DNA of 52,357 nucleotides from Marinococcus halotolerans DSM 16375 (lineage in GTDB: Bacteria > Bacillota > Bacilli > Bacillales > Marinococcaceae), in assembly GCF_000420725.1 (NCBI RefSeq), contig NZ_ATVM01000020.1, positions 1-52,357 on the forward strand, given 5' to 3'. Every line of letters begins with the position of its first letter. Position 1 is the stretch's first letter. The notes beneath the pieces were generated by a model, which searched no databases, was not told the origin of the DNA, and worked only from the letters and a program-made list of their open reading frames with translations. The position numbers and the translations under genes are program-made. Below are positions 28,979 to 32,583 of this stretch, in pieces.

Positions 28979-29030
28979 TTATATAAATGTTCTTTAAAAT
29001 AGTGCTTCCAGGGCCCGCACGATGCGGGTC

Positions 29031-29073
29031 AGTTCGATGTTGCTACAGGATGTAGCGATTTTAATCGAACATC
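29031..29073 (+). repeat. Repeat A, copy 1: short nested hairpin
   Basis: Outer arms GTTCGAT (29032-29038) and ATCGAAC (29064-29070) enclose a perfect inner hairpin GCTACA-GGA-TGTAGC (29042-29056). A near-identical 30-nt core recurs at 32406-32435, and at both sites it is followed by Repeat B units. Confidence 0.85.
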
Positions 29074-29091
29074 CTTTAAATAACACCCTTC

Positions 29092-29222
29092 GCTTTTCTT
29101 TGTCCAGCTCCGGAAGCCAGCGGCAGCGTGTCCCTTCAGATCTTTGTTAAAGGGAAAAAACCCCTTTATCCAAAGCTCTTCCAGGGCCCGCGCCGCTAAA
29201 CAGGCTTCCTCCGCTTTTCTTT
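29092..29222 (+). repeat. Repeat B, unit 1: long nested hairpin
   Basis: The 18-nt junction GCTTTTCTTTGTCCAGCT opens the unit (29092-29109) and returns at 29213-29230. Between the junctions the sequence folds on itself in four perfect nested arms: GGAAGCC/GGCTTCC (29112-29118 with 29203-29209), AGCGGC/GCCGCT (29119-29124 with 29192-29197), CTTTG/CAAAG (29142-29146 with 29171-29175) and TAAAGGG/CCCTTTA (29148-29154 with 29162-29168). Confidence 0.85.
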
Positions 29223-29340
29223 GTCCAGCTTCGAAGCCTAACCGCTCGGGGTTACTTCCCAGCCGACTCCGGGCAGCAGGCTGCCCTGCACGTCTGGGAA
29301 GTACCTGTCGCGGTTGAGCAAGGCTTCTGCGCTTTTCTTT
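29213..29340 (+). repeat. Repeat B, unit 2: long nested hairpin
   Basis: The unit opens with the same junction as unit 1 and ends in GCTTTTCTTT (29331-29340). Its own nested arms are GAAGCCT/AGGCTTC (29233-29239 with 29321-29327), AACCGC/GCGGTT (29240-29245 with 29310-29315), ACTTCCCAG/CTGGGAAGT (29254-29262 with 29294-29302) and GGGCAG/CTGCCC (29271-29276 with 29281-29286). The inner arms differ in sequence from unit 1 while the fold is the same. Confidence 0.85.
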
Positions 29341-29344
29341 AATC

Positions 29345-29400
29345 ATAAAAAAAACAAAAGTGGCGCCCTGCCACCATATGGAGGGGGCACACTTTTGTTT
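29345..29400 (-). terminator. pyrG leader attenuator (terminator hairpin)
   Basis: AAACAAAAGTG (minus strand, 29400-29390) pairs perfectly with CACTTTTGTTT (29362-29352), with an inner GCCC/GGGC pairing, and runs into eight Ts. The 5' arm contains GCCCCCTCC (29388-29380), which could pair with a run of Gs at the 5' end of the transcript and so prevent the terminator. It also lies downstream of rpoE and may end that transcript. Confidence 0.85.
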
Positions 29401-29444
29401 GTCGTTCATGCTTATATAGGTATCATTTTCACCTTTACGTCACA

Positions 29445-29484
29445 GCCCAAAAATGATTGTACCTATACGAGCTTCGAAAGTCAA
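29445..29484 (-). promoter_or_regulatory. pyrG promoter with GGGC start
   Basis: TTGACT (29479-29484) and TACAAT (29456-29461) are exactly 17 bases apart, and seven bases further the transcript would begin GGGCT (29448 onward). B. subtilis pyrG also starts with GGGC, where low CTP causes repeated G addition. The promoter lies just after the rpoE stop. Confidence 0.8.
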
Positions 29485-29502
29485 GATATGACCACGATAA
29501 AA

Positions 29503-30039
29503 TTACCGGCTCTCTTCTTCACTTTCCTCTGTATTGTCGCTTCCACTGTCTTCTTCGTCTTCATCTTCGTCCTCGTCGAAGCCTGGACCGGAATTACCTG
29601 GCTCAAAGCCTTCGAGATCATTATCATCAAACGTGTCTTCATCGGCGTCGTCTTTTTTAGAGATGGCGTCCAGATCGTCGGAAATGTCCACCAGGTCATC
29701 GTCATACGTTTCTTCTTCCGGATCGATCTCATCGGCAAGCTCATCAGAGCCCTGTACAGTATGGCTCAGCTCTTCATCTGACTGATCGAGAGGATACCAT
29801 CCGCGAAGACCCCAGTGGTTTTCGCCCAGGTGCACAAACCGTCCATCCAGATTCATGGATGTAAACAATTTGATCATCCGGCTTTTTCTTTCTTCTTCCG
29901 TGTAGCCTTTTAATTCTGTCAGACGGTCCATGACTCTCGTATAGCCTGATGCTCCGCCCTCTTCTTCGAGAATCATATATGCCAGTTCCATCGAAGACAT
30001 TTCCCGTACTTTTTCTTCGCTCAACTCGTTTATTTTCAC
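29503..30039 (-). CDS. rpoE: RNA polymerase delta subunit
   Basis: Gram-positive RNA polymerase accessory subunit that raises specificity and recycling. The 178-residue protein has an N-terminal winged-helix (HARE-HTH) domain (about 1-85, with LDGRFVHLGENHWGLRGWYP) and a long, almost purely acidic disordered tail of D and E. The frame is open to an ATG at 30066, but GTG 30039 has AAAGGAG about ten bases upstream, and the resulting start (KINELSEEKVREM) lines up with B. subtilis RpoE, so GTG is chosen. pyrG follows, as in Bacillus. Confidence 0.94.
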   Translation of the reverse strand: MKINELSEEKVREMSSMELAYMILEEEGGASGYTRVMDRLTELKGYTEEERKSRMIKLFTSMNLDGRFVHLGENHWGLRGWYPLDQSDEELSHTVQGSDELADEIDPEEETYDDDLVDISDDLDAISKKDDADEDTFDDNDLEGFEPGNSGPGFDEDEDEDEEDSGSDNTEESEEESR

Positions 30040-30200
30040 AGCTTCATCGCTCCTTTTCACGAACATGCCCTTATGCTGATTCCTTTATATTAATCGCTTC
30101 ATCGCTACGAAAATTCATACCTAAAATTATAAACATATTTCGAAGGAAAATTCCATAATTATTATTCAATTCTTCCTGATAGAATTTACCGCCTGTCTGT

Positions 30201-31652
30201 TTAATTGTTTTCCAGAGGTGCCCATTCGTTCTGCTGCCGGTTCGTGAGAAGGGAAACGAGCACAAACGCCGCAAGTGAAAAAAGAACAGGCATGGCTACC
30301 TCGTGCATCCCGAGCCACCCCGGCAGCCAGATGGAAATAATCATGTATGAAGCGATACCTGTGACCATCGCTGCAAGCGCTCCCCAGCCGTTTGCCTTTT
30401 TCCAATACAGCCCTAAAACAATTGGCCAAATGAACGCTGCTTCCAGCCCACCAAAGGCAAACAGATTCAGCCAGATTAAAAACTCCGGCGGGCTCCACGA
30501 AATAGCTACAACAATAATGCCGACGGCTGCCGTAACAATCAGGCTAAGCAGGCGTATTCTGTTTTCTGACGCGTCCGGCTTGATATAGTTGATGTATACA
30601 TCTTTCACTACTGAGGAGCTGATCATCAGCAGCAGGGAATCCACGGTGCTCATGATGGCCGCCATCGGCGCTGCCAGGACGATACCGGCCAGCCATCCGG
30701 GAAGGACAGTCATCGTAAGCTCCGGCATAACGGTATCGGCCACTTCAATGCCCGGAACAACGACGCGGCCCATAACCCCGGCCATATGCATTCCAAACAT
30801 CATAAAAGCAACCACTGCCGTTCCGATCAGAAGTGCACGGTGCATAGCAGCCGAGCTTTTATACGACATCGCCCGCACGGCCACCTGAGGCAGCCCGACC
30901 ACTCCCACACCGACTAAAATCCAGAATGACGATACATAGAGCGCGGTTAAATCTCCGTCTGCGCCGAACGGTGTAACGAGGTTCGGGTTTTCCTGATACA
31001 GGGAGGTCATAATATTGTTCATGCCGCCTCCGGCTATCAGTGTAGCGGTAAAAATAATCAGCGTGCCGACTACCATAATAATGCCCTGCACCGCGTCTGT
31101 AACCACTACTGCCCGGAAACCCCCGATAATTACGTAAAACAGGACAGCTGCTGCAAACAGGAACAGAGACGCCTGATAGCTCATGCCTGTGACCGATTCG
31201 ATGAGCCTCGCGCCACCTACCCACTGGGCAGCCATAGCGGAAAATAAAAAGATGACAATGCTAAATGCCCCTAAAATAACAACAAGTCCGTTATTATAGC
31301 GGGAGCGGAGAAAATCCACGAGTGTTACAGCCCGGTACCGGCGGGCCATGACGGCAAATCGCTTGCCGAGAATCATCAGCGTGAAATAGCCGGTAACCAC
31401 CTGGGCCATGGATAAAAGCACCCAGCCAAGCCCGCGGTCGTAAGCGATGCCGGGGCCCCCGACAAAGCTGCTCGCACTGCCGTACGTCGCAACCATTGTC
31501 ATTGCAAGCACGAGTCCGCCAAGTTCACGGCTTCCTAAATAGTAATCATGAAGAAAAGAAGCAGCTCCCGTCCTTTTTCTAGCAGACCAGATACCGATCG
31601 CAAACGTAAAAAGTAAAAAAACGACTAATGGCACAATCACTTCTATATTCAT
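30201..31652 (-). CDS. panF: Sodium/pantothenate symporter
   Basis: Solute:sodium symporter family, 483 residues with about 13 membrane helices. Several blocks match E. coli PanF closely: TYGSASSFVGGPG (about 58-70), AVTLVDFL, GLPQVAVRAMSYK, LAAPMAAIMSTVDS, and LLAFGGLEA-like LFAFGGLEAAFIWPIVLGLYW. It would import pantothenate, the precursor of coenzyme A, with sodium. It overlaps yhdT by one base (TAATG), the same pairing as in E. coli. B. subtilis lacks this pair at rpoE-argS, so it is accessory here. Confidence 0.92.
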   Translation of the reverse strand: MNIEVIVPLVVFLLFTFAIGIWSARKRTGAASFLHDYYLGSRELGGLVLAMTMVATYGSASSFVGGPGIAYDRGLGWVLLSMAQVVTGYFTLMILGKRFAVMARRYRAVTLVDFLRSRYNNGLVVILGAFSIVIFLFSAMAAQWVGGARLIESVTGMSYQASLFLFAAAVLFYVIIGGFRAVVVTDAVQGIIMVVGTLIIFTATLIAGGGMNNIMTSLYQENPNLVTPFGADGDLTALYVSSFWILVGVGVVGLPQVAVRAMSYKSSAAMHRALLIGTAVVAFMMFGMHMAGVMGRVVVPGIEVADTVMPELTMTVLPGWLAGIVLAAPMAAIMSTVDSLLLMISSSVVKDVYINYIKPDASENRIRLLSLIVTAAVGIIVVAISWSPPEFLIWLNLFAFGGLEAAFIWPIVLGLYWKKANGWGALAAMVTGIASYMIISIWLPGWLGMHEVAMPVLFSLAAFVLVSLLTNRQQNEWAPLENN

Positions 31653-31924
31653 TAGTCTTCCTCCTGATCAAGAGGAATATCACGGAGGACGAACTTCACG
31701 ACAAACCATAGAGTGACGAGTAAAAGCACTGGCCCGAGCACACAGCTGTAAAAAAGCCAGTCGGGCATACCGAGTATGTACTGATAATCCTGGGGGTCTC
31801 TGCCTCCAAGACCATACGCAAAACCAAACCACCAGATAAAATGGCCCACAGCAATAGCAACCCCAAGAAGCGCTTCCTTCGCTGTGAGCTGCTGCAGCTT
31901 TTTCTCTTTTTCTTCCAGGCTCAT
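31652..31924 (-). CDS. yhdT: YhdT/DUF997 family small membrane protein
   Basis: A 90-residue protein with two membrane helices (about 17-37 and 51-77) and short charged ends. YhdT-type proteins are regularly encoded directly upstream of panF and may act with the symporter, though the role is unproven. ATG 31924 is chosen because GGAGG lies six bases upstream; an earlier in-frame ATG abuts that site. Confidence 0.85.
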   Translation of the reverse strand: MSLEEKEKKLQQLTAKEALLGVAIAVGHFIWWFGFAYGLGGRDPQDYQYILGMPDWLFYSCVLGPVLLLVTLWFVVKFVLRDIPLDQEED

Positions 31925-32109
31925 GACCATCCTCCAATTTTTCGTTCCTTCAAAAACTTCAATTAGTTTAGCTGATTTACCAGTCTGCTGCAACCTTATT
32001 GACAAATCGTTCCCGTTTCACGAAAATATACGTATTGTGTCTGTAATTTCAAGCGACGTTTAATCATTATAAAAAAGGGTATTATAATTTAATAAAGTTA
32101 AAGGTGTTG

Positions 32110-32307
32110 ATGTATATGGCTGGCGAAAAGCAATTTGACCAATTCGAACCTGGAGAAGTCGTCCATTACGAAGGCTATGAAATGAAAGTTATTTCTGAAT
32201 TTGAACGCACAGTTATCGTAGAGTTCAGTGATTATCCAATTGTGGGAAAAGAAGAAGAATTTCCTTACCACCGCATCGTCCTATTAAAAAATGAAGTAAC
32301 CCATTAA
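32110..32307 (+). CDS. Small conserved hypothetical protein
   Basis: A 65-residue acidic protein (pattern FEPGEVVHYEGYEMKVISEF, then TVIVEFSDYPIVGKEEEFPYH) that looks like a small beta-barrel; a DUF2187/KOW-like fold is possible but not certain. AAAGG lies five bases before ATG 32110 and eleven before ATG 32116, so either could be the start. A TATAAT lies at 32083-32088 without a good -35. A strong terminator follows. Function unknown. Confidence 0.7.
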   Translation: MYMAGEKQFDQFEPGEVVHYEGYEMKVISEFERTVIVEFSDYPIVGKEEEFPYHRIVLLKNEVTH

Positions 32308-32326
32308 AATAATCATCTATCAAGTG

Positions 32327-32364
32327 CAAAGCTGCTTCCTCACACAAGAGGAGCAGCTTTTTTG
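32327..32364 (+). terminator. Terminator of the small conserved gene
   Basis: AAGCTGCTTCCTC at 32329-32341 pairs with GAGGAGCAGCTT at 32348-32359, with one unpaired base, followed by T6. Confidence 0.92.
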
Positions 32365-32405
32365 ATTTATAGAATCTTAGATCAGGACCCAAATGAAGCA
32401 GGGCC

Positions 32406-32443
32406 GTTCGACGTTGCTACAGGACGTAGCGGTTTATTAGTCG
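32406..32443 (+). repeat. Repeat A, copy 2
   Basis: Its first 30 nt differ from copy 1 (29032-29061) at only three positions, all transitions. The inner hairpin GCTAC/GTAGC (32416-32420 with 32426-32430) is kept, and a short outer CGAC/GTCG pairing remains (32409-32412 with 32440-32443). Confidence 0.85.
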
Positions 32444-32455
32444 GCCGCGTTTTCC

Positions 32456-32583
32456 CTGGCTAGCTCCGCCTCCTAGCCGTCCGGTCCATTGGCTTCACCC
32501 TTGTTTCACCGTCTAACGACGCTTCCAACAAGGTTTACGCCAGCCGTCCGGAACGGCTGTGCAAGTCGGCTCCGCTTTTCTTT
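32456..32583 (+). repeat. Repeat B, unit 3
   Basis: The unit begins with TAGCTCC (compare CCAGCTCC in unit 1) and ends with the same GCTTTTCTTT (32574-32583). Nested arms: AGCCGTCCGG with CCGGAACGGCT (32475-32484 with 32548-32558, one bulge), TGGC/GCCA (32490-32493 with 32539-32542) and CCTTGTT/AACAAGG (32499-32505 with 32527-32533). A local hairpin AGCCGT/ACGGCT competes. Its last base is also the last base of the acetyltransferase stop codon. Confidence 0.8.

Follow-up and report, generated by a model that had tools for sequence, protein, structure and literature searches.

The window analysed here, 52,357 nt of the Marinococcus halotolerans DSM 16375 genome (the whole of the stretch read from contig NZ_ATVM01000020.1), had been predicted from its letters to carry the same arrangement at two intergenic sites: a 40-nt hairpin, Repeat A, followed by one or more 120-nt units, Repeat B. 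Both repeat sites are confirmed as real, and the family is larger than first described. Repeat B (hereafter B) belongs to a larger family that is absent from Rfam. On balance, we consider B to be probably a non-autonomous DNA hairpin element that docks behind transcription terminators, the copies in the window being old and leaderless.

As we picture them, B elements would be small, non-coding, non-autonomous DNA elements found Bacillales-wide, and what is recognised would be the DNA folded into a hairpin. At full length, about 160 nt, a copy would comprise a 5′ leader (approximately AAAAGATAAGAAAGTATAAAA plus 15–20 nt), GTCYAGCT, a long hairpin closed by AGC/GCT, and CGCTTTTCTTA. Insertion would be directional, no further than about 5 nt past an intrinsic terminator's T-tract, and would leave no clear target-site duplication, with a recombinase or transposase presumably acting in trans. 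The element's own 3′ end (a stem followed by TTTTCTTA) looks terminator-like, and the next copy could dock behind it, giving head-to-tail arrays. The leaderless units of the window would have arisen by the same docking and then been inherited at fixed loci, with units lost or reordered via conserved junctions. Repeat A corresponds to the Rfam family RF01690, which would be a second small hairpin repeat, nesting in B units and elsewhere.

Fixed ends and covarying arms

B units are 110–124 nt long and have fixed ends (TCYAGCTNC...CGCTTTTC) around variable interiors. A search of 121 genomes with pattern 1 (AGCTNCG-N76..106-CGCTTTTC) gave matches in 93, many of them by chance. At least 10 matches were present in 26 genomes, termed copy-rich below, in which the reversed pattern gave 0–7; genome G037 had the most (74), and the genome of the window, G000, had 13 against three for the reversed pattern. 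A stricter pattern 2 (GTCTAGCTNCGG-N78..108-CGCTTTTCTT), run on genome contigs, identified at least 119 stretches. Among the 119 matches listed, 116 carry titles naming genera that we take to belong to the Bacillales; the remaining three come from a Flavobacteriales metagenome-assembled genome, a Chryseobacterium record and Pilibacter, and are possibly misassigned or matched by chance. Pattern 2 gave no matches in viral contigs, and a phage origin of B was set aside on the result of this one exact pattern. Genome G022 alone contains 321 terminus matches, compared with two for the reversed control.

A covariance model was built on 60 non-redundant units from the pattern-2 scan, all from other genera. 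The alignment took 60 of 61 units, leaving out the Flavobacteriales locus (L258) and keeping the Pilibacter locus (L303), which is probably a chance match. No scan locus is more than about 75% identical to loci of the window's genus over 100 nt, and the model is therefore independent of that genus. It gave 21 matches in eight sources, made up of the three window units (rough E-values of at most 1.6e-10) and units at the sister loci. No Rfam family reaches an E-value of 5 for any of the three window units, and we found no published description of the B family in the open-licence literature searched, though one may be in print elsewhere.

In the typical unit a closing AGC/GCT triplet leads into a 3 × 3 internal loop that reads TNC on each side; beyond the loop come a 7-bp helix, a 3′-side bulge of some 5 nt and another helix. 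Because the search patterns prescribed the triplet, nothing can be concluded from its never varying. Each window unit forms nested hairpins, with fold energies of −51.6, −55.4 and −42.9 kcal/mol for units 1, 2 and 3, respectively. The arms, which the original prediction called perfectly nested, are imperfect, being interrupted by the internal loop and the bulge.

Before counting, near-identical units were removed at 85% identity (RF01690 copies at 90%) and, for a 40-unit set, units failing a fold filter were dropped. Against mononucleotide shuffles, the mean z-score of the interior fold is −4.7, with 57 of the 61 non-redundant units below −2; against dinucleotide shuffles, the 40 fold-filtered units average −5.0 on the plus strand and −5.3 on the minus strand. 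Helix 2 is 93.6% paired in the 40-unit set but only 59% (maximum 70%) when arms are swapped between units. The 61 units taken without the fold filter give 86% against 65% for helix 2 and 91% against 60% for helix 3. RNAalifold finds double changes in eight of 13 pairs. A separate count of pairs has 93.9% of cells paired and 131 double-changed cells where shuffles give 39 ± 4.6. The covariation score is 0.442 compared with 0.138 in shuffles, and it collapses when partners are slid. The proposal that the arms change without loss of the structure is borne out by these fold scores and by covariation beyond the controls: the excess of compensatory changes is clear and further copies in relatives are many, the family being common in the Bacillales.

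Within helices 2 and 3, 532 of 592 cells are Watson–Crick pairs, with 13 G.T, nine A.C and 38 others; among the mismatches there is no excess of G.U on either strand. Covariation of this kind, nearly pure Watson–Crick and without a wobble excess, suggests that the hairpin is DNA and not RNA. It may be a protein target or a single-stranded DNA substrate, both suggested at the outset.

Leaders, terminators and arrays

The leader is conserved at the start of copies in G022 and in other genera. It is followed by a GTCTAGC-like start in 47 of 48 occurrences, at loci mostly fetched for their B units; the one leader without a B unit is not an obvious autonomous form. Thirty of the 39 full-length leader-bearing copies with distinct 5′ flanks measure 155–162 nt. 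A T-tract lies within 20 nt upstream of 35 of the 39, as against three in a control window 70–90 nt upstream, eight downstream and none antisense upstream, and a hairpin plus T-tract lies upstream of 26 as against two downstream. Most of these copies come from two genomes, Cytobacillus sp. S13-E01 (21) and G022 (14), with one each from G060, G016, an Anoxybacillus and an Alteribacillus. A looser scan of 124 arrays, which also counts unit remnants, found a terminator-like site in the sense orientation within 120 nt upstream of 60, the controls being 30 upstream antisense, eight downstream sense and nine downstream antisense. Arrays near locus ends or containing N were left out of this looser scan, and of the first-unit and gene-context counts below.

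Insertion can also be followed by comparing G022 with G016, which we did in two stretches holding seven element sites. At site F, G016 reads TTTGTAC directly followed by CTTAG, and the G022 element sits exactly between the two without duplication. Site B has the 8 nt TTTTCTTA at both edges and is ambiguous, because the element normally carries these 8 nt at its 3′ end; site E resembles it, is less clean and is likewise ambiguous. No clear target-site duplication, the mark of DDE-type miniature inverted-repeat transposable elements, was found at these one clean and two ambiguous junctions. Possible terminal inverted repeats, TAAGAAAG in the leader and CTTTTCTTA at the 3′ end, were seen by eye.

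In the window, the two sites hold the following parts:

29005–29018, plus strand: first copy of a 14-nt direct repeat, CTTCCAGGGCCCGC
29014–29080, minus strand: Repeat A copy 1, RF01690 (Bacillaceae-1), two hairpins; 76.4 bits, gathering threshold 35
29081–29098, plus strand: TAACACCCTTCGCTTTTC, the 3′ end of a B-type unit that lacks its 5′ half
29103–29219, plus strand: B unit 1, subtype alpha; 62.9 bits, E 2e-15
29178–29191, plus strand: second copy of the 14-nt direct repeat, within B unit 1
29224–29337, plus strand: B unit 2, subtype beta; 62.2 bits, E 3.1e-15
29345–29400, minus strand: terminator of the upstream gene (probable rpoE); the site-1 array sits between this terminator and pyrG
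32320–32357, plus strand: hairpin plus T-tract, the terminator of a 65-aa open reading frame (ORF) at 32110–32307, upstream of site 2
32383–32450, minus strand: Repeat A copy 2, degraded RF01690; Rfam match at 32409–32443, 30.2 bits against a cut-off of 35
32459–32580, plus strand: B unit 3, subtype delta; 44.7 bits, E 1.6e-10

Site 1 is flanked by pyrG (CTP synthase) and the preceding minus-strand gene, which we take to encode the RNA polymerase delta subunit (rpoE); the HARE-HTH match of its product is slightly below cut-off. Site 2 lies between the 65-aa ORF, which has no Pfam match, and a gene for a GNAT acetyltransferase.

BLAST annotation of eight orthologous loci in up to five species of the genus shows that each array keeps a single orientation while the content and order of its units vary. 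Four arrangements are found in five species at site 1, five in five at each of site 2, X and Y, three in three at each of Z, W and U, and two in two at V. At site 1, G000 has A-alpha-beta, G001 and G004 have alpha(3′ part)-beta-gamma, G002 has alpha(3′ part)-gamma and G003 has alpha(3′ part)-beta; a 173-bp part of the site, bounded by the 14-nt repeat CTTCCAGGGCCCGC, is absent from the four sister species. Units are 0.94–0.95 identical to those at the same locus in sister species but only 0.74–0.83 to those at other loci of their own genome, from which it follows that the arrays are old and have been reshuffled locally; the same comparison gave no sign of transposition between loci within the genus. 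At loci X and W, the 3′ internal-loop triplet is identical across the classified units of an array whatever their subtype, as if the junction triplets had been homogenised within the array, whilst elsewhere it varies.

Several of our own results weigh against a terminator-docking element. Two of the covariation measures, which count the pairs showing any double change and the kinds of pair, are not above shuffles; the support from covariation therefore comes from the counts of cells, the score and its collapse when partners are slid. Only three of the seven sites compared between G022 and G016 have an alignable empty junction, two of them the ambiguous ones, and the other four cannot be aligned. 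Among 110 first units, mostly of leaderless arrays, 53 have a unit remnant upstream, 21 a T-tract and 10 what was called a leader, and 26 have none of the three; in control windows for the same units, T-tracts number 35 and 39. With T-tracts no commoner than in the controls, docking of leaderless arrays behind terminators is not supported by this count. No sense terminator precedes window site 1, and the unit identities reveal no recent spread between loci in the window's genus. Neither an autonomous copy nor a mobiliser was found, the enzyme families searched being Y1_Tnp, GIIM and RVT_1. Finally, the 39 leader-bearing copies are far from independent, and only in two genomes is docking clearly documented. 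Concentration of the evidence there lowered our confidence in the docking element and slightly raised that in its strongest competitor.

That competitor does away with any factor that recognises the fold: one arm would be corrected from the other by template switching during replication, and arrays would change by slippage at the junctions. Strictly Watson–Crick covariation, unit-exact losses and reorderings at inherited loci and the 14-nt repeat on either side of the 173 bp by which site 1 differs would all be expected from such a process. Nevertheless, the 3 × 3 loop and the bulge persist in many genera, where arm correction should have removed them, and new insertions behind terminators require an insertion step. 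We judge template switching unlikely.

RF01690 and the case for an RNA

Repeat A is not the 40-nt hairpin first described: copy 1 is a 67-nt member of RF01690, with hairpin loops that we assume to be of the RUCCU type, and the copy at site 2 is partial, scoring below the Rfam cut-off. Nor does A simply precede B, although the two sites at which they were reported together do exist. At sister loci RF01690 is found within a B-type unit. At site 1 it forms the 3′ part of a 5′-truncated unit, the end of which is at 29081–29098 and the intact counterpart of which, with RF01690 inside it, is present in locus L003; in G002, the ortholog of B unit 3 (delta) contains an RF01690 copy in place of about 10 nt of the unit, which in G000 lacks that copy. 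By eye, RF01690 lies inside B-type units in loci of G000, G002, G006, G016, G018 and G022, often just within the 3′ outer arm, and in an apical or middle position in L153, L165 and L169. It matches in 71 of the 121 genomes; in several of these every one of the 38 scored candidates proved to be a match, so the real counts may be higher. In 15 non-redundant copies, limited to those captured by our regular expression, 247 pairs are Watson–Crick, two G.T, five A.C and one other. RF01690 behaves here as a dispersed hairpin repeat, nested in B units in several genomes and with no wobble signature.

RF01690 also occurs in other settings. In L096 (G014, 873–1939) it lies between two ORF pieces of an rpn gene (PDDEXK_2; PD-(D/E)XK nuclease family transposase), with a Pfam match in the first piece only. 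At the centre of L093 (G120) it is found in a short ORF that resembles, by eye, a holin-like type I toxin peptide. Near-identical copies are present within a different repeat in L134–L137 (G101); these repeats have IS605-like ends and resemble IS605-type derivatives.

RF01690 is listed as an RNA motif by Weinberg et al. 2010 (PMC2864571), and its classification as an sRNA is one reason to ask whether both repeats are transcribed, with an RNA hairpin as the selected object. The conserved loops and bulge and the covarying arms of B would suit an RNA, as would the better folding of the minus strand in 37 of 40 units. That strand preference was dismissed as a sign of RNA, being mostly base composition (−6.9 kcal/mol observed compared with −4.8 in shuffles), and in neither B nor RF01690 are wobble pairs enriched over other mismatches, whichever strand is read. 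RF01690 is, moreover, highly repeated and splits the rpn gene in L096. The structured RNA offered in the original prediction is weakened by these results, and we rate it a little below template switching.

Candidate mobilisers and related systems

Y1_Tnp, the domain of RAYT and IS200 transposases, is found in 98 of the 121 genomes but is absent from seven of the 26 copy-rich genomes and from G022. GIIM is absent from 21 of the 26 and RVT_1 from 15; G022 has two RVT_1 matches and no GIIM, and G037 has neither family. Five of the 26 (G003, G021, G040, G041 and G108) lack all three, and because of these we conclude that the general mobiliser is neither a RAYT/IS200 transposase nor a reverse transcriptase. 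The five are 99–100% complete, but four of them are in at least 20 contigs, and genomes without the tested families may have had a mobiliser and lost it once the copies had spread. A pair of termini about 1.2 kb apart in G022 (L170) was considered as an autonomous copy and rejected, as it appears by eye to be two neighbouring elements with an ordinary ORF between them. The only Y1_Tnp gene of the window's genome (L008, G000:C6, 1246–1818, minus strand) has no B 3′ ends within 1.5 kb; its product matches no PDB sequence and, with HUH and tyrosine motifs that we take to be degenerate by eye, may be inactive.

Group IIC introns target sites behind terminator hairpins in the sense orientation, and a group IIC-like reverse transcriptase could in principle retro-insert B there, primed by the U-rich 3′ end of the unit. 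Sense insertion behind T-tracts without clear duplication would fit—for leader-bearing copies, mostly in two genomes, and not for leaderless ones—as would the RVT_1 matches of G022, one of the two best docking genomes. We nonetheless think such a route improbable: maturase and reverse transcriptase are missing from the majority of copy-rich genomes, including G037, GIIM is missing from G022 itself, and a transcript begun at the possible −10 box would not include the leader, which lies upstream of it. Movement of a REP-like element by a RAYT/IS200 (Y1 HUH) transposase, for which the hairpin substrate, the lack of clear target duplication, the wide occurrence of Y1_Tnp and its five matches in B-rich G037 might speak, is the least credible of these explanations, given the copy-rich genomes without Y1_Tnp, its absence from G022 with 321 termini, and a Y1 gene in the window's own genome that has no B ends near it.

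Among known repeats, B resembles the BOX elements of Streptococcus pneumoniae in combining fixed ends with a modular interior, a likeness of description and not of compared sequences; we know of no enzyme identified as moving BOX. B differs in its host group and in terminator docking, which is not among the BOX traits familiar to us. Integron attC sites, which have AAC/GTT, share with B the hairpin, the fixed ends, the variable interior and the unit-wise change of arrays, but B has AGC/GCT instead and no cassette genes. REP elements of the REP/RAYT type are defined as palindromes of 20–40 nt with a GTAG or CGTC tag (PMC3733652). B is similarly short, intergenic, palindromic, present in many copies and probably moved in trans, yet differs in its 110–124 nt length, its TCTAGCT...CGCTTTTC ends, its head-to-tail arrays, the lack of such a tagged palindrome and the several copy-rich hosts without Y1_Tnp. 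The Bhal-1 stem-loop family of Bacillus halodurans (74 nt, 36 copies; PMC2267715) is, by description, another stem-loop repeat of a Bacillaceae and could be RF01690 or part of B.

If B is indeed a terminator-docking element, it would account for a type of intergenic DNA that is widespread in Bacillus and related bacteria, put the RNA status of an Rfam family in question and provide an example of a mobile element with transcription terminators as safe landing sites. It is conceivable, though we would not call it probable, that B is the visible part of an undescribed mobile system of the Bacillales in which a hairpin DNA cassette docks behind terminators with no target duplication, brings its own terminator-like docking site, stacks in arrays and tolerates nearly any interior, nested RF01690 among them, served by a recombinase that is neither HUH Y1 nor a reverse transcriptase; in that case RF01690 would have been filed as an RNA although it is a DNA element. 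The question is directly testable, since some relatives, such as G022, hold hundreds of matching termini.

As for gene context, a same-strand gene lies upstream of 49 of 74 B arrays, and 15 of the 74 overlap an ORF of at least 90 aa. By eye, B units also lie beside or between ribosomal RNA genes in L234, L237, L266, L285 and L057.

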